This document shows, piece after piece, positions 14,790-28,165 of a stretch of 64,000 nt of DNA (its first letter is position 1; every line of letters starts with the position of its first letter). Source of the DNA: Burkholderiales bacterium (GTDB taxonomy: Bacteria > Pseudomonadota > Gammaproteobacteria > Burkholderiales > Nitrosomonadaceae); contig JABTUQ010000001.1 of assembly GCA_015075225.1 (NCBI GenBank), positions 186,001-250,000 of the forward strand, written 5' to 3'. Made by a program: the position numbers and the translations under genes. The notes beneath the pieces are model-generated. The model had not been told where the DNA came from and made no database searches. It saw only the letters and a program-made list of their open reading frames with translations.

Positions 14790-15620
14790 ATGTCTGAGAA
14801 AATCATATTTGCAGAAAAATTGGAAGGATTTGTCAAAAGCCTCAAAGATCACGTCAGTACAGATGACGGCCAATGGACAGTCAGAGGTTTCATTGATATC
14901 TTCAAAAATGCCTACACCATATCCTCAGACACAAAAATTGTGTCGAAAATCCTCGAAATACACCTCTTTCCAAAAATTCTAAAATTTGCGCAAGACAACG
15001 GCTATAAGGTCGTACTTGCAGAACATCAGAATTACTATCCAGATATTTCATTTGTCAAAGCCACTGACGAATCTGTACGCTTTGCCGTTGATTTCAAAAC
15101 AACATACAGAACCCTCCAAAAACCTCATTTATGCAATGGATTTACACTTGGTTCACATGGCGAGTACTTTGAAAACAGAACAAGCACAAAGAATATCCAG
15201 TTCCCTTATAGCTCGTACTTGGGGCATTTTTGTCTCGGCATAATCTACGACAGAGCCGATGGCGCAACTATTGATGAGACGAAATCACACAACATTGACG
15301 AACTGCAAGCCATTACTTCAGTGGCAAAGAATTTCCAGTTCTTTGTTACGGAAAAGTGGAAGATTGCAAGCGACAAAGGCGGCAGCGGAAACACTGCGAA
15401 CATCGGCAGCATCAATAACATAACCGATATTGTGGCGGGCCGTGGCATGTTTTCCAAACTTGGCGAGCATTGGTTTGATGAATACTGGATGAATTATAAG
15501 AAAATAACGGTTCAAGATGGGAAGGGCGGCACGAAGAAAATTTCTACTCTACGAGAGTTTGTGGAATACAAGAACGGAGATGTGTCTCTAGTCGTCAAAA
15601 AAAGGAACGGTGAAGAATGA
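14790..15620 (+). CDS. Type II restriction endonuclease, EcoRV-like (predicted GATATC)
   Basis: The 276-residue protein aligns by eye with EcoRV. The metal-binding catalytic core is present as YPDISF (Asp85) and AVDFKTTY (Asp101, Lys103), matching EcoRV Asp74, Asp90 and Lys92; Glu56 in KILEIHLF matches Glu45. The minor-groove Q-loop region HQNYYPD and the sequence-reading R-loop [10 protein letters not shown] (about 197-206) are almost identical to EcoRV, so the same GATATC target is likely. EcoRV cuts it to blunt ends. The next gene is the matching methylase, overlapping by ATGA. The composition is AT-rich compared with metG, which suggests horizontal transfer. Confidence 0.9.
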
Positions 15621-16516
15621 GTTTCAAAGTCAGCGTTCCTCCCATCAAATCTCAAGGGATAAAAACCAAGCTAATCCCTTGGATAAGGAGCGTTATCCCC
15701 TCAGATTTCAAGGGAGCTTGGGTTGAGTCTTTTATGGGTACAGGCGCAGTTGCTTTCAATGTTGCACCATGCCGCGCAGTGCTTTGCGACACCAATCCAC
15801 ACCTAGTAAATTTCTACTCCGCGATTGCAAGAGGCGAGATCACGCCCGAGGTAGTCAATGCCTACCTCGTCAAGGAGGGGGCATCCCTATTGGAGAAAGG
15901 GGAAGATCACTACTACTTCATCCGTGACAGATTTAACGCCGAGCACTCACCATTAGATTTTTTGTTTGTGAACCGTAGTGGTTTCAATGGAATGATTCGC
16001 TTTAATCGCAAGGGTGGTTTTAACATCCCTTTTTGCAGAAAACCTAGTCGCTTTGCCCAAGCCTATGTAACAAAAATTACCAACCAAGTCGCTTGGGTTG
16101 CAAAGACAATCAAGGCTAAAGATTTCTCCTTCAAATGCCAGAGTTTTGAGGAAACAATATCGCAAGCCGCCAAGGATGACATTATCTACTGCGATCCTCC
16201 GTATATCGACAGACATGTTGACTACTACAACGGCTGGGATGCCGATCACGAAAAAAGCCTTTTTGAATCCCTATCCGATTTTCAAGGTAAATTCATATTG
16301 TCAACTTGGCATCACAATGACTATCGAGAAAACGAATACATAAAATCGCTATGGTCAAATTTCTCTATCCTCACTAGAGAACATTTTTATCATATCGGCG
16401 GAAAGAAAAAGAACAGAAACCCAATGGTTGAAGCTCTTGTAACAAATTTTACGGTTTCGTCCAAAGAAATAGAAGTAACTCGCCCAGTGCAATTTGCTTT
16501 ATTTGAAGAGCGCTAA
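15617..16516 (+). CDS. DNA adenine-N6 methyltransferase, Dam/M.EcoRV family
   Basis: The 299-residue enzyme has the AdoMet-binding motif I FMGTGAV (residues 39-45) and the catalytic motif IV DPPY (193-196), in the order of alpha-class N6-adenine methylases such as Dam, DpnM and M.EcoRV. A lysine-rich start ([12 protein letters not shown]) matches motif X. It should protect GATATC from the endonuclease encoded just upstream. Its ATG overlaps the endonuclease stop in ATGA, so the pair is translationally coupled. No separate controller (C) protein gene is visible. It is intact. Confidence 0.92.
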
Positions 16517-19574: not shown

Positions 19575-22323
19575 TTATTGAACCGGGTTGCGCTGCTGAT
19601 CGGTCAATCCGGCAGACCACTGGGAGTTAAGGTTCTGTGCCCAGCCGTTATAAACATTGGGTAAGGCCACTACACCCTGTCCACCATAACCTGCCATATT
19701 GCTGACAGTATCATCCTTCGGCACACTGTTATCAGCCACCAGCGTTACTGCACCTGCCACTTCTGCATCACTCAGATCTCCATCGCCATTTGGATCCGGA
19801 TCAATTACGATCAACCGGTTGGAGAATTTGTTGGTGACATAGGCATAGTATCCACCTCCTTTCTTGGCTCCAAAATTGGCTCCATGGCAACCGGGGTCGC
19901 AAGGCAGGGTTTTGACAATGGTGTCCGTTCTGGTGTCGATTACAACCAGCTGGCCGCCATAGGAGGCCGTTACCATAACCTTGCCGTCTGGTGATACCGG
20001 AGACTGGATTGGCAGTATGCCAATCGGGCCAGTGATGTCGCCGGAAATCGGGTTGTAATGCTCGATCAGATTGATGTTTTTAATAAAGTGACCATCATTT
20101 TCATCCATCACTGTGATGCTGTGATGCAGCAGATTGGCCGCATAGACCTTGCTGGAATCCGGCAGCATACCGATGGCAATCGGGTGGGCACCATGCTGCC
20201 CATCGCCAGTTGCTGTTCTGGCAACAATCTTGCCATCTTCAACATCATAAAACCCGGCATCGTGTGTATTGATATTGGGTGTGATGATGCGTTTGCCATC
20301 TGCCGAAATCCAGTGACCATGAGGATCGCCAGGTGCCTGACCATGGCTTTGGGTTAACAGCGCCCGGTTGATATTGGTGGTGCCAGCCGGAATGATGACT
20401 ACATCGTTCTCGCCATTGATGGCTACAGTGATGTCATCCGTGTTGGGGAGCGTCATCTCATGCGCGAAAGGAGAATCGCTACCACCGGACATTGCTGATC
20501 AGCTTGCCGTTTTTCTGGTTAATGGCGGTCAGCTTGTTATCAAACCACTGGGTGGTATAGACAACCGAATGATCGCGATTTGGCCACATGTTGTGCGGAT
20601 TGTTCAGATTGATCTGCGGCAGGGCAATTTTCCGTTTGAGCTTCCAGTTGCTGGTATCCACCACCGTAATAGTGCCCGGTTTGGTTTTGCCAGCTGTTTT
20701 TTCAAACTGGGTATCCACCCATACTTCGCCTACCCCTGGTACAGCCGGTTTGCCCAGTTGTTTCAAATTGATATTGTCGCCATAACGTGTGTGCAGCACA
20801 TCCTGCAGATTCACCGTGCCGATATCCACTTTGACATCCACATCCGGATAAACCGTTTTCCAGGGTTCTGGAGAAGTGAAGTTCTGCCAGTTCCCGGGTA
20901 CGGTGGTGACAAAAAATGTGTGCAGCAAGCATGTGGCCAGGTCACTGCTGGTAGGCAAATTCTTGATACCCGACACCATGTCGATGGTATTACCGAGATC
21001 CAGTCCGTCGGTTGCCGGATCGTCAACAATCACAGCAGCGAACATGAAGGGATGAATCTTGCATGTGAATACATACAGACCGGGGACATTGAGCTTCAGA
21101 ATAGCGCCACCACGGTAAGCCTTGGCTTCATCAAACGGGATCATGAAATGATCGCCGCCATGATCGTTATGCCCGGCCTCGCTTGGCCATAGCAGGCTGG
21201 TGATGGTATGCACACCTGCTGTATCCGACATGATGAAATGGACACTGCTGCCAGGCGGGATGATTTCCAGTGATTTGGTATGGGTTACCGGGCTGAGCGC
21301 ATCGCCACGGGCACTTCTGAACCAGCTGGCAGGTTCATCGCTCACGATAAAGGTAGCCAGACCGGGGTGGTCACTGTCATGACCAAAAATAGCACCGCTG
21401 GGAGAAGCTCCAGCAATACTGTCTGCAGATTTCCCGGAATCACGAGAAACAACATGAATCCGGCCATTCATGCCGGATTGCATGTGAGAAATCAGGTGGC
21501 AGTGAAATTGCCAGACGCCCGGGCCGACACCTGTGCCAGCCTTGACAGTGAAAACATGGCTGTTGTTCTGGCTATTTAGAATGTGCGTATCAATGATATG
21601 GGGCGATGCTGTCTGTGTACTGCCGGGCTGAATCCAGCGATGCGCATGCAGATGGAATGTATGGCCAGGACCGATTGCGAGCACGTGGAAGCGCAACAGA
21701 TCATCCTGGTAGGCACCCAGATCGGGGTTGGTCCACAAAGGTTTCTGGTTGCCATCGCTGGAAATTTCACTACCCCAGAACGTCGAACCCACCATGAACA
21801 ACACGAATTCCTTGTTCAATCGGGATCGATCAATGGGCACAATCTTGCCATCACCATCCACAAAACTCTGGATCTGACCGCCGGGTTCATCTACCACAAT
21901 GGCACCGAACAGTCCCAGCATGGCTGCTTTATCATCTTGATAAGCATAGGTGCCAGGCTTGTTGGCTTTCAGCTGGTAGCTTTTTGTCTGTCCTGGCGCG
22001 GCAGCTGCGGCATTGCCGGTAGAAAGACCGGGAGCAGAAAAACTGACTGGAGACTGGGTATTATTGGTCAGCTGTACCTTGATTTTGTCTCCGGTTTTGA
22101 TGAACAGAGTTGGGCCGGGAATGGTAGCTTCGGCTGCATAACCCGGCACACTACCGTTATCACTGCTGTGACTGAGTAGTTTATAGGCGGGTTGGCCATT
22201 GGGCAGGGTTTCGGCCGACATGACGATATTGTGCGTTGCCGCCATCAGCCAGGCAGGGAACAGGCAGGCTGCGATGAACGCAACCCGCAATGCCGCAGGT
22301 TGTAAAAAGGTTTGAAATCTCAT
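19575..22323 (-). CDS. Multicopper oxidase, 3 cupredoxin domains plus C-terminal beta-propeller (frameshift near 20486)
   Basis: AAGGAAAG precedes the ATG at 22323, followed by a signal peptide (about residues 1-28). Domain 1 has lost its copper ligands: SFSAPG and YAYQDD stand where HxH motifs are expected. Domain 2 has them all: HTFHLHAHRW (His221, 224, 226, 228) and WQFHCHLISHMQSGM (His274, Cys275, His276, His280, Met285). A third cupredoxin domain has its own mononuclear set (His372, Cys421, His424, Met427 in CKIHPFM). The frame breaks near 20486; beyond it is a YVTN-type propeller of about 300 residues with repeats such as GKVMVTASYGGQLVVIDT. The reconstructed protein is about 915 residues and periplasmic. 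It starts 42 bp downstream of the partner oxidase gene. Confidence 0.85.
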
Positions 22324-22364
22324 TTTCTTTCCTTGATTTGAAGAACGGATCAAAATGCACCTCA

Positions 22365-23374
22365 TCAATGGGAAACGATGAAGTCGCCCCGCATTCCCTG
22401 CACTTTGTCGGCGAATGCTGTGTCCTGATAGCGTGAGGAACGGGTTGCCTTAACGGTAAAGACGCAAGCTTTTCCAGCGGCCCGAGAATTTTCTGATTGA
22501 TAGTGAAGTGTGTGCCCGGATCAATCCATTGATAACCTGGCAGCTCAAACCGGTGAAAATTGGTGCCCAATGCAATCAGATGAAAATTGACGTTGGTATT
22601 CTGCTGTGCGATCAAATTAGGATTGGCGCCCAGTGCAGTCTGCTTGCCGGTGGCACCATCGATTTCCATGCCCCAGAAAGCATCATCCCCAAGATAGAGC
22701 ACGTATTCCCTGGAAACACCATTGGAAAATTTACCGCCCTGAGCCCAGTTGGTGCTCGAAGCAGGCCGGACGATGAGCGCACCGAATAATCCCCTGTCCT
22801 CGGCGCCATTATGGCTTTCCATGTTGTGATCATGGTAAGCCCAGGTTCCGGCTGTGCCGCGCGCCGCATCCCAGCGGTAGGTATAGGAAAGATGTGGAAT
22901 GGCGCTTTCATCCTTATACAGATTGATGTATTTCAGCGTGCCATCGCTTTCCCGGTCGTAGTGCACGCCGTGGACATGCAAGCTGACATGCTCCTGTACG
23001 GGAGTATGTGCATCAAATTGATGCAGAAGCTCGATTTCGGCAACATCACCCTCATCCATAATAATGATTGGACCGGGAATGGTGGCTGTGCTGGTGACAT
23101 AACGGCTGGTGATGTCGGTTTGTACGCCATCCGGCTGCTTGACCACATAACCGGCCATACGGTATCCATACAGGCCATCAGGCAATCGTTCTGCGTACAT
23201 GACAATGCTGTGCAAATTTCCCGCTATTGCTGCCATGCCGGGAAACAGCAGCCCCAGTACCAGGGCGGATGTTGACCAGAAAGCCCTGGCGGATAGTGGT
23301 TTGCACCATCTTTTCAGGCTATGCCATGGACGAGATTCATGTGTGGAAAATCCACAACCGAATTCGAAATCCAT
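22365..23374 (-). CDS. Two-domain multicopper oxidase-like protein with only domain-1 ligands (frameshift at 22470-22473)
   Basis: An AGGAGGAG site precedes the ATG at 23374, followed by a signal peptide ending near residue 52. Domain 1 keeps both histidine pairs of the trinuclear site: SLHVHGVH (His133, His135) and WAYHDH (His181, His183). Domain 2 is degenerate: NFHRFELPG replaces the HxH, and SRYQDTAFADKVQGM replaces HCHxxxH, so no type 1 copper can bind. One A is missing from a run at 22470-22473; restoring it continues through FTVKATRSSRYQD to a stop at 22365. The reconstructed length is about 336 residues. It is the first gene of a pair; the downstream oxidase carries exactly the missing ligands. 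Confidence 0.85.
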
Positions 23375-23699: not shown

Positions 23700-24928
<1,229 letters not shown>

Positions 24929-24951: not shown

Positions 24952-27900
24952 TTAGTGCCCGGACGGAGTATCGGTTTGGGGAGGTGGGGGCATATCCGGA
25001 TTGGCTGGCCGCAGGTCGGTGGCCAGTGATTGAAACAGAAGCTCGGTTTCCCGGCTGGGGCGCATACCAAGATGGGAGAAGAGAGTAAGCTGACAACACT
25101 GGTAGGTGGAGAGCGCCTTGTAGTGCTGTTCGAGCTGCATGCAACAGATCATGTGTCGGCGATAGAACATTTCGGCCAAAGGATCAATGCCGATTGCCCT
25201 GAGATAGTGCCGGGATGCCAGTACCCAATCGTTATTGCATTCAAGCAAAAGGCCCAGCTGTTCGCTCATGTTCAGATAATGAAGATGCAGACGCTCGCGG
25301 AAAGAAATGATCCAGGATTCCGGTTCTTCTGCCAAGAATCGTCCCTGATAGCGATTGATTGCCACTTGCAGGGAAACCTGAGTGGCATTGGGTTGGTGGG
25401 CAACGCGTAGGAATGTGAGGTAATCAATCCAGACATAATTCATATCAAGCGATAACTGGCGATTTTCCAGCCGCACGGCCTTTTCATGCTGCAACATCTT
25501 CCGCAGACGATGCAGCGTGGTTCTCAATGCCTGTCCAGCAACATCTCCGGAAGATTCCGGCCACAAGGCATCCATAATCTGATTCTGGCTGATCGCTCTG
25601 CCACCAAATGAACACAGATATTTCAGTAATTCCATAGGCTTGCGCTGGGATTTGCCGTCGAAGCGCAAAGGCTGGTCATTGCACAAAATGGAAAACCGGC
25701 CAAATGTATAAATCCGAATTGGCCAGGGCCAGTTTTCATTATCTGGCGAAGAAGGCAGGAGACCACGGTGGCGAATTAGATGTTGCACATAGCAGGTTTC
25801 TATTCCGTTGCGGAGCGCGCACGACAACAAAAGCGACATGACCCTGGGTCGCCACCAGAAATCGGGAGCAAGGTAATTATGTCTGGCGGCAATTGCCAGC
25901 GCTTCCTGCAGCATGTTTGTCGCTGCGAACTCGTTTTCAATGCGGAGTTGAGCATAGGCAGCCACCAACAAGGCCCGGCATTTGAGCAGACAGGCTTTGG
26001 TGCTATCGGCATAGTAAATGGCGTGAGTGAGCTGATTGCCGGCTTCTTCTGTGGCACCAGTTTCAATCAGAATTTGTGCCAATCCGATACGGACAGACGC
26101 TGCAAGAAAGCAGGCTCCTGTTTCTTCAGCCTGAGTGAGACCTTCCCGTGCTGCCTGAAGTGCACTGGATACATTGCCTTCCAGCAGTTTGACTCCAGCG
26201 CGCAAGCCGTTCAGTTCTGCCTGGATCAGCTTGTTCTGTGGATCATGCAAACTTCGCCTGGCGTGTTCCAGATGCATGCGGGCATCATTCGGATTGCCTT
26301 CTGCCAAGGCACAGCTTATTCCCAGCATCCATAATCTGCAGTCATGCATGGATGTTCCGGCATGCCTGGACTGATTCAATCCCTCGCTGAATTTATCCAT
26401 AGCAAGTGGGAAATTTGCGGTGAGCCAGGCCAGATTTCCTTCCGCAATATGCCAGAGAATGCGGGTTGTAGCCTGTAGATGGGCAGTGTGGATCAGCGGG
26501 GTGAGTTGCCGGGTAATGGCGCGGGTACGGGAGAAGTCACCCTGTCGCAAGGAGAGCCACGAAAGCGACAGCCCCATTTTCATTTTCAGCTCCGCTGTAA
26601 TATCGCTGCTCAATAGCTGATCTCTCCGTGCCTCAAACGCGATCACCAGAGGGTGGTGGGGCAGGATGTGAACAAATGCATGAAGACTGGCGAGAACGGT
26701 TGCCTCGACTGTAACCGAAGGAAATTCCCCGCATCCAACAACCAGCTGCTGCAATTTTTCTACCCACGGCAACCCGAGATGTACGGGGTTTGCCTGTGAA
26801 AAACCGGCTTCGATCAGCGCGCCCAGCGTAAGGAAACAGCCGGTTTTGTTGCCGGTTTTGTCAAAACCAGCATAAGCCTGTTCCAGATTAAGGGTGGCGG
26901 TTTGTGGATCGGCAGGCATGCTGGCCATTCCCCGCCAGTAGAACAGCCATGGCAGGGAGTCGGATATTTGCAATGGAAACAGACCGGTTATCTGCGACAA
27001 GAGCGAATGTTTCCCCTGATCAAGCCATGATGAGGCGTGGCGGTTGATCTTCTTCCCATGCCTGTGCCCGCGCAAGCAGTTCAGCCGCCGTTTCCACATC
27101 ACCGTGCTGTTCCATCAGGGTTGCGCCGGTTTGCAGAATGCAGCGGGATTCATCCGGAGAAAAATAACGGTTGAACTGATCAATGAGGAAATGGCGAAAC
27201 AGCGGGTGATACCGGTAGAGGAGTGCTTTTCCGTTCTGCCGGTTGATGAATGACCGGTGATGGCAGAGCTGTTCCAGCATTTTTCTGGAATGTTCGCAAC
27301 CATCCATCTGATCAGCCATTTCCGCTGTCATGTACGGCAACAAGGCAGTGCGTATCATGAATTCGCGCATCGCCTGCGGAGCCGGATCAAACACCTCGCT
27401 GGAAAAATAGCCGGAAACAAGATGATTATCGATGGAGGCAGATGGATTCGAAGCACCGGATTGTTTGATCTGCTCCAGCATCAGCATAAGACCGGTAACC
27501 CACCCTTCAGACTGGTTTTGCAGTAATTGTAGAGTCACTTCATCAAGGGCCAACCCCGATTTGTGTGCAATCAGGCAGATTTCTTCTGCTGTCAGATAAA
27601 GATCCGTTTCATCAATCTGCCCAAGCAAATTGCTAGCGACCAAGCGGGCAAACCGGGGTGGAGGGGCGGTACGACTAATCACCTGCAAATGGATGTCATG
27701 CGGCAATTCCTGCATTGCTTGCTGTATGACCTCGTGAAATACCGATGCCGGGTCTATTGTGTGGTAATTGTCCAGCACAACGACCGTGTTGGCGGGAAGC
27801 CGGGCAAAAAGGGAGCGAAAGAAACGGCGGGAAAAATCGGCCAGATCCTGCAGATCTTCCGGTATCAGGGTCGGCAATGCCAGATGGGCATCTTCGGCTG

Positions 27901-28165
27901 CTTCCCCGCTGGCCTGCGCCAGATAACCGAAGAAGGCGGCGATATCGTTGTCGCCACTATCCAGCAGATACCATAAAACCGGCAGATTGCGCTCCAGAGT
28001 GTAACTTGATACCAGCGCTGTTTTTCCAGAGCCTGGCGAACCGGTAATCCAGATAACAGGGTGATTGGTTTGTTTCTCATCCAGCAGCGCAAATACAACG
28101 TTCCGGTTTGTGATGTTGAACAGTCTTGGCCGGCTGAGTTTGGCTGGTACGCAAGGCCTGATCAT
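24952..28165 (-). CDS. MalT-like STAND ATPase with C-terminal winged helix and BTAD domain (one frameshift)
   Basis: The N-terminal 380 residues are MalT-like: PAKLSRPRLF at the start, Walker A GSPGSGKTALV near residue 42 and Walker B VVVLDNYH near 125. The frame breaks near 27050; the other frame continues with INRHASSWLDQGKHSLL and a long TPR-like helical region. Instead of a LuxR helix-turn-helix, the C-terminus (about 230 residues) has an OmpR-type winged helix (IRIYTFGRFSILCNDQPLRF, then LLKYLCSFGGRAISQNQIMD) followed by a bacterial transcriptional activator domain. The reconstructed protein is about 1070 residues. It is divergent from the aromatic-oxidation operon at 28.6 kb and is its likely activator. 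Its stop codon is the TTA at the end of a repeat fragment. Confidence 0.85.

Follow-up and report, generated by a model that had tools for sequence, protein, structure and literature searches.

In two-domain multicopper oxidases of type B, the T1 copper is held in domain 2 and the trinuclear site forms where domain 1 of one chain meets domain 2 of another, as outlined in two accounts of the family (PMC6650940, PMC13151041). Known type B small laccases are homotrimers with all ligands in each chain. Ceruloplasmin, hephaestin and related six-domain proteins are described as having their trinuclear site where domains 1 and 6 meet, and are believed to have lost the sites once present at the other ancestral interfaces (PMC3600357). 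In ammonia-oxidizing archaea, the MCO1 and MCO4 lineages are described as copper-responsive two-domain oxidases with the T1 to T3 centres in one protein (PMC7785015). The two proteins described here, A and B, likewise belong to the two-domain oxidases and to copper-dependent nitrifiers, but their ligands are not found in one protein, as in the archaeal enzymes, nor all in each chain, as in the small laccases; they are divided between two paralogues, one of which (B) also carries an extra cupredoxin domain and a propeller. No multicopper oxidase split between two paralogous chains was found in the open-access full texts searched, outside which subscription journals mostly lie. The sequence comparisons support the division of a type B two-domain oxidase active site between two paralogues.

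The window, that is, the whole stretch of 64,000 nucleotides analysed, to which all coordinates refer, belongs to a genome assembly of 2.48 Mb in 19 contigs whose closest named relatives are Nitrosomonas. Both genes lie on its minus strand. The gene for A (22365..23374), identified by six-frame translation, relatives and the predicted fold of its L008 orthologue, encodes a two-domain multicopper oxidase homologue with domain 1 live and domain 2 dead. The gene for B (19575..22323), identified by six-frame translation and an intact relative of 914 amino acids (P0001), encodes a dead domain 1, a live domain 2, a third cupredoxin domain and a YVTN-type propeller. Two-domain small laccases (SLAC, 3cg8; Ssl1, 4m3h; SgfSL, 5lhl) are the best PDB relatives of both proteins by sequence, and the predicted folds of A and B each contain two cupredoxin domains in the small-laccase arrangement. 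Pfam identifies Cu-oxidase_3 in A and Cu-oxidase_3 with Cu-oxidase_2 in B, and the tail of B matches YVTN propeller models. Motifs and domain matches together give two cupredoxin domains in A and three in B, not six in one chain. B falls short of the NirK equivalog, scoring 45 bits against a cut-off of 296; a NirK-like protein (L003) is encoded by a separate gene of the same genome.

Ligand positions were located through alignments to 3tas and 3t9w, and the assignment of individual histidines to the T1 or the trinuclear site is established for this family. Six-frame translation recovered on the minus strand all the motifs quoted in the preliminary description, namely SLHVHG and WAYHDH in domain 1 and NFHRFELPG and YQDTAFAD in domain 2 of A, and SFSAPG and YAYQDD in domain 1 and HTFHLHAH and WQFHCHLISH in domain 2 of B. 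Domain 1 of A holds the trinuclear histidines, as the HxH of SLHVHG and the HxH of YHDH (22826..22978, minus strand, as are all features of both genes). In its domain 2, NFHRFELPG (22535..22561) keeps the first T1 histidine and has lost the trinuclear HxH, and YQDTAFADKVQGM (22392..22430, beyond a frame change) replaces HCH...H....M. Domain 1 of B has lost the trinuclear HxH in both PVSFSAPG (22027..22050) and YAYQDD (21931..21948). Its domain 2 has the T1 histidine and trinuclear HxH in HTFHLHAH (21640..21663), and the T1 cysteine, histidine and methionine with the trinuclear HCH in WQFHCHLISHMQSGM (21469..21513). The third cupredoxin domain, with the mononuclear blue-copper ligands H, C, H and M (21043..21210), is present as first described, and so is the beta-propeller, of YVTN/YncE type, which occupies approximately 19575..20760 by an NCBIfam beta_rpt_yvtn match and by YNCE and Lactonase matches in relatives.

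The pattern was counted in the best 120 of 327 A matches and the best 120 of 673 B matches, all 240 being included; in the protein search for B only candidates sharing most words were scored. Histidine occupies the four positions of A domain 1 in 120, 120, 120 and 118 of these relatives, the exceptions being P0123 and P0212, and the set is complete in 118 of 120. In A domain 2, both HxH positions and all HCH...H positions have histidine in 0 of 120, and the cysteine position is Asp (104) or Asn (16) throughout. It had been claimed that this domain lost both its T1 and its trinuclear ligands: the claim is right for the trinuclear ligands and for the T1 cysteine, absent in 120 of 120, and too strong for the first T1 histidine and the methionine position, kept in 108 and 117 of 120. 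The eight ligands H, H, H, H, C, H, H and M of B domain 2, including those of T1 copper, are present in all 120 B relatives, as are the four of domain 3. In B domain 1, neither position of the first HxH has histidine in any of the 120, and of the two in YAYQDD one has it in 42 and the other in none, histidine thus being absent at three of four positions. Among the best-listed relatives, 120 for each protein, there is no case in which the missing half has been restored, and no row in either set has at least two ligands of its lost half. A full trinuclear set within one chain, which the preliminary description had named as contrary evidence, occurs in 0 of the 120 A and 120 B rows; one complete set is supplied only by A and B jointly, as was claimed. 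Rereading from DNA showed the pattern in all 30 A loci (the window's own and 29 from other genomes) and in all 30 B loci, every one from another genome; it is not due to chance.

The halves of A and B that keep their ligands are also the better conserved ones. Columns at least 95% conserved number 54 of 152 in domain 1 and 23 of 131 in domain 2 of A, and 25 of 116, 52 of 148 and 55 of 143 in domains 1, 2 and 3 of B. Comparison of the window with the locus of N. europaea ATCC 25978 (L006) gave dN/dS of 0.055 for A domain 1, 0.22 for A domain 2 up to its frame change, 0.061, 0.088 and 0.029 for B domains 1-3, and 0.088 for part of the B propeller, all rough figures because dS is 1.07-1.74 and near saturation. 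By this rough measure B domain 1 (0.061) is not relaxed, which speaks against a split oxidase. About one histidine per blade of the B propeller is invariant or nearly so; these fit the common YVTN repeat, and for this reason no metal site is claimed there.

The two genes had been described as adjacent, and adjacent they are, both here and in relatives; neither, however, is open in the window, since both are frameshifted. In A the frame changes near 22463, so that YQDTAFAD sits in a different frame from the remainder, and in B near 20480, the propeller forming a separate ORF (19575-20492). An upstream STAND-ATPase/TPR/BTAD (MalT/AfsR-like) gene on the same strand (24952..28165), assigned by domain matches and a candidate regulator of the pair, has a frameshift near 27050. 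Assembly indels are likelier than decay, because intact relatives exist: P0121 (335 amino acids) is 99% identical over 67% of the A ORF, P0001 is 100% identical over 97% of the B ORF, and both genes are intact at L006. Three breaks inside about 7 kb, one of them in a nearby regulator broken in like manner, also suggest assembly errors and, less probably, real mutations. Between the pair and the regulator lies an IS3-type transposase (23700-24584). Of the 28 related loci compared, 4 have a regulator of the STAND/TPR/BTAD kind in their neighbourhood and 11 have a response regulator of NarL type; the only gene families that all 28 share are those of the oxidase and the cupredoxin-propeller.

In a survey of 125 genomes of the window's family (Nitrosomonadaceae, judging by its named Nitrosomonas relatives; E<=1e-10), A-type matches were found in 77 and B-type matches in 91. 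Five of the 77 have weak matches only, inside proteins of about 1000 amino acids that are not A, and 72 genomes possess both A and B. A search for co-occurrence of the two degenerate halves had been proposed, and the halves are together in 72 of 72 carrier genomes, which give 80 match rows for A and 80 for B (two of the B rows, in G064, being pieces of one gene). Nineteen of the 91 genomes with B-type matches lack the pair. Thirteen of these contain only the cupredoxin-propeller part, mostly as stand-alone proteins of about 600 amino acids; G058 and G072 contain short or broken propeller pieces, and G015 and G016 weak matches in proteins of about 320 amino acids. In the remaining two A is absent: G059 retains a 3' fragment of B that is interrupted by a stop, and in G076 the B oxidase domains are interrupted by two stops. 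An open copy of a single half alone was found in 0 of the 125 genomes at this threshold. For 78 of the 80 A copies, B follows directly on the same strand, with 22-360 bp (median 51) between match ends; the exceptions are G038, whose A and B sit on separate contigs, and the second of the A copies in G050. Some genomes have two divergent pairs, those of G075 differing by 54% (A) and 52% (B). Distances among A and among B proteins are correlated (r 0.911 over 22 distinct pairs, a value reached in none of 2000 permutations; r 0.925 for 25 pairs with three duplicates included), a correlation that shared ancestry alone could yield. A core enzyme of ammonia oxidation, such as an NO oxidase, was considered for the pair and is not supported, as 53 of the 125 genomes, several of them 99-100% complete, lack it. 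Across the class, 4 of 369 genomes match A at 1e-40, two from the window's genus (its own genome and G074) and two with an undivided form of the oxidase, and at this threshold no split pair was found outside the window's genus in the 369 genomes. Beyond the family, the matches listed include, by their source names, Nitrosococcus wardiae and a Nitrospirales MAG, each having an A and a B match on contigs of equal length.

The undivided form is found in Methylocystis and related loci, where a single two-domain oxidase with all 12 ligands is followed by a separate cupredoxin-propeller gene. By sequence it is closely related (about 39-43% over the oxidase). Ten distinct loci were collected (L015, L018, L019, L020, L021, L085, L086, L093, L094 and L095), and the propeller gene is next to the oxidase in nine, with a frame change in L093; L094, the other copy carried by the L018 genome, has none within 1.5 kb. 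L015 and L018-L021 were fetched with B as query, which favours finding a propeller; of the other five, obtained otherwise, four have it. The methanotroph loci (Methylocystis L015 and L018-L021, its plasmid locus L095, and L085 and L086 from class genomes) share with the A/B locus the order of oxidase and then cupredoxin-propeller; they differ in having one full-set gene instead of two complementary ones, and a separate propeller where that of B is fused. A search with the undivided form gave 116 new proteins among the matches listed, of 329 matches: 91 have the full ligand set, 15 are of A type and 10 are truncated or incomplete at ligand positions. Sources include methanotrophs and a Nitrosopumilus MAG, whose protein P0333 falls in the undivided group of the tree.

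A maximum-likelihood tree of 75 rows (24 A, 24 B and 25 undivided), which carries a long-branch warning, separates A from the other rows by one well supported branch (100/100) and B by another (100/99); the 25 undivided rows form one weakly supported group (84/50). Such a tree is compatible with one duplication followed by opposite losses and does not fix the order in which A, B and the undivided form branched. A further two-domain oxidase of the window genome, L004, with a full ligand set by eye, is remote from this family, on a branch of 2.25. Methylocystis L015, L019, L020, L021 and L095 encode a COX1-family protein, SirB and NnrS no more than about 6 kb downstream of the propeller, a context absent at L018. 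Among the other loci of the 41 searched, only L109, from the window's genus, gave a weak partial NnrS match; NCBIfam gave no name to the COX1-family protein or to the L109 protein. This NO-related context of the undivided loci is a lead only.

We consider A and B to be the two halves of one multicopper oxidase, an obligate hetero-oligomer with its trinuclear site between domain 1 of A and domain 2 of B, and give this reading a probability of roughly 0.84. The surviving halves are complementary and conserved in relatives, so A and B most likely must join, and only the interface of A domain 1 with B domain 2 can hold a complete site. Comparative evidence supports the split oxidase proposed in the preliminary description; we infer, besides the complex itself, its stoichiometry, periplasmic location, copper content and direction of electron flow. 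The ancestor would have been a homotrimeric type B two-domain oxidase in which domain 1 and the next chain's domain 2 shared each trinuclear site. Its gene would have been duplicated; A would descend from the copy that lost the domain-2 site, and B from the one that lost the domain-1 site and was joined to the cupredoxin-propeller of the neighbouring gene. Electrons would enter B, possibly via domain 3 or the propeller, and move from the T1 copper of its domain 2, by way of the HCH bridge, to the trinuclear site at the interface of that domain with A domain 1, where O2 would be reduced. Both proteins would be needed together, as A assembled with itself would lack T1 and the domain-2 ligands, and B assembled with itself would have T1 with half a trinuclear site. 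Domain 3 and the propeller probably deliver electrons or serve in docking, a suggestion of the preliminary description that is somewhat strengthened by the undivided relatives, in which a gene of its own, directly after the oxidase, encodes the same cupredoxin-propeller.

A ring of three subunits would be A2B or AB2, with one complete site, since a three-membered ring cannot alternate A and B. A single full site per ring would be unusual and counts against the split oxidase. The fuller proposal, an asymmetric obligate ring whose one trinuclear site is fed by the fused cupredoxin-propeller and which arose from a symmetric three-site homotrimer by duplication and reciprocal loss, is held tentatively, at somewhat less than even odds. 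Such a ring would resemble ceruloplasmin, reached by duplication, not by fusion; ceruloplasmin is one six-domain chain where A and B are two chains, and the predicted relative placement of the chains is not comparable with it. Complex folds, made with the neighbouring genes as one read-through chain and with shallow alignments, have low to middling confidence (pTM 0.36 and 0.54) and no confident interface, and they model B domain 3 and the greater part of the propeller poorly. Foldseek comparison of this makeshift A/B fold with ceruloplasmin chains gave TMq of about 0.31 and rmsd of about 16. These results count against the split oxidase.

Since prediction did not demonstrate an A/B complex, A might be a separate copper-binding or structural periplasmic protein and B an electron-transfer protein with two blue-copper sites, no oxidase being formed; B domain 3 is indeed a complete mononuclear site alone, and stand-alone cupredoxin-propeller relatives occur in family genomes that lack the pair. 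Separate roles are nevertheless unlikely. They leave the trinuclear ligands of B domain 2, kept in 120 of 120 relatives, with no known use in the absence of a partner half, and they do not account for A retaining exactly the four ligands that B is missing, or for the linkage of the two (78 of 80 adjacent, 72 of 72 co-occurring). The same neighbourhood and co-occurrence tell against B pairing with another partner, such as the canonical two-domain oxidase L004, while A serves another enzyme. L004 is available in the same genome with its full set; it is, however, distant and self-sufficient in ligands, and this arrangement seems very improbable.

The frameshifts in both window genes, and the broken B remnants without A in G059 and G076, are what would be expected if A and B were decaying remnants of two oxidases, complementary by accident. 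Against this, relatives are intact, all 30 loci read for each protein show the ligand pattern, every domain has a dN/dS of 0.03-0.22 (with dS near saturation), and the like breakage of the nearby regulator points to assembly errors; accidental complementarity through decay is extremely improbable. The pseudogene reading is rejected for the A/B family on dN/dS and the 30 of 30 recurrence, a rejection that is not extended to the frames of the window strain.

The proposed split oxidase bears on a general question, the route by which a symmetric enzyme whose chains share their active sites becomes an obligate heteromer; for comparison, both halves, the undivided form and the gene order can all still be found. 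The asymmetric ring, if it exists, would give nitrifiers an equivalent of ceruloplasmin built from two genes, and would offer a clear example from nature of gene duplication splitting an enzyme through its active site. Because the pair is present in 72 of 125 family genomes and undivided relatives occur in methanotrophs, it is a candidate for an unknown copper oxidase of organisms dependent on copper monooxygenases. Cuprous ions, ferrous ions and nitrogen oxides are possible substrates. Multicopper oxidases on plasmid pBSC2-2 of Methylocystis SC2 are mentioned in connection with ammonium load (PMC9600857), their link to the A/B pair being a candidate one only. Likewise candidates only for the pair are two multicopper oxidase genes reported with log2 changes of 6.16 and 6.14 in phage-infected N. 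europaea (PMC13356812).

The A/B pair of adjacent multicopper oxidase paralogues is preceded by a regulator of the STAND-ATPase/TPR/BTAD (MalT/AfsR-like) type at 24952-28165, which shares 41-45% identity with the regulator near the pair in locus L010. An IS3-type transposase (rve, HTH_21) lies between this regulator and gene A, at 23700-24584. Three neighbouring genes, namely A, B and the regulator, carry frame changes at approximately 22463, 20480 and 27050, respectively, and the relatives of all three are intact. These frame changes are probably assembly indels, and other gene calls within the window may be affected by such errors. Elsewhere in the window, an EcoRV-type restriction endonuclease (14790-16516; PF09233, E 5e-119) is adjoined by a D12-class adenine methyltransferase.

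The propeller of B possesses about one histidine per blade, at residues 577, 620, 667, 669, 712 and 812 of the intact relative P0001, and these show little or no variation across the B family; the same holds for C807 and C811. Cupredoxin-propeller proteins of about 600 amino acids without a fused oxidase are found in many genomes of the family sampled, including some that lack the pair, and also in a Chloroflexi MAG (L017, 7905-9719). Broken remnants of B occur in family genomes without A, at loci L116 (G059), L118 (G076), L119, L122 and L123 (G072), as if B had decayed once A was lost.

In several Methylocystis loci, a COX1-family gene lies together with SirB and NnrS on the downstream side of the genes for the undivided oxidase and its propeller protein (L019, 12846-16004; L095, 16957-20115), with a sigma factor upstream; in M. 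rosea this set is plasmid-borne. A link of these loci to NO is possible.

The window's own genome also encodes a NirK-like protein (L003), whose gene is preceded by a cytochrome-like gene containing CxxCH, and, apart from the pair, one two-domain multicopper oxidase (L004) with a ligand set judged by eye to be full.
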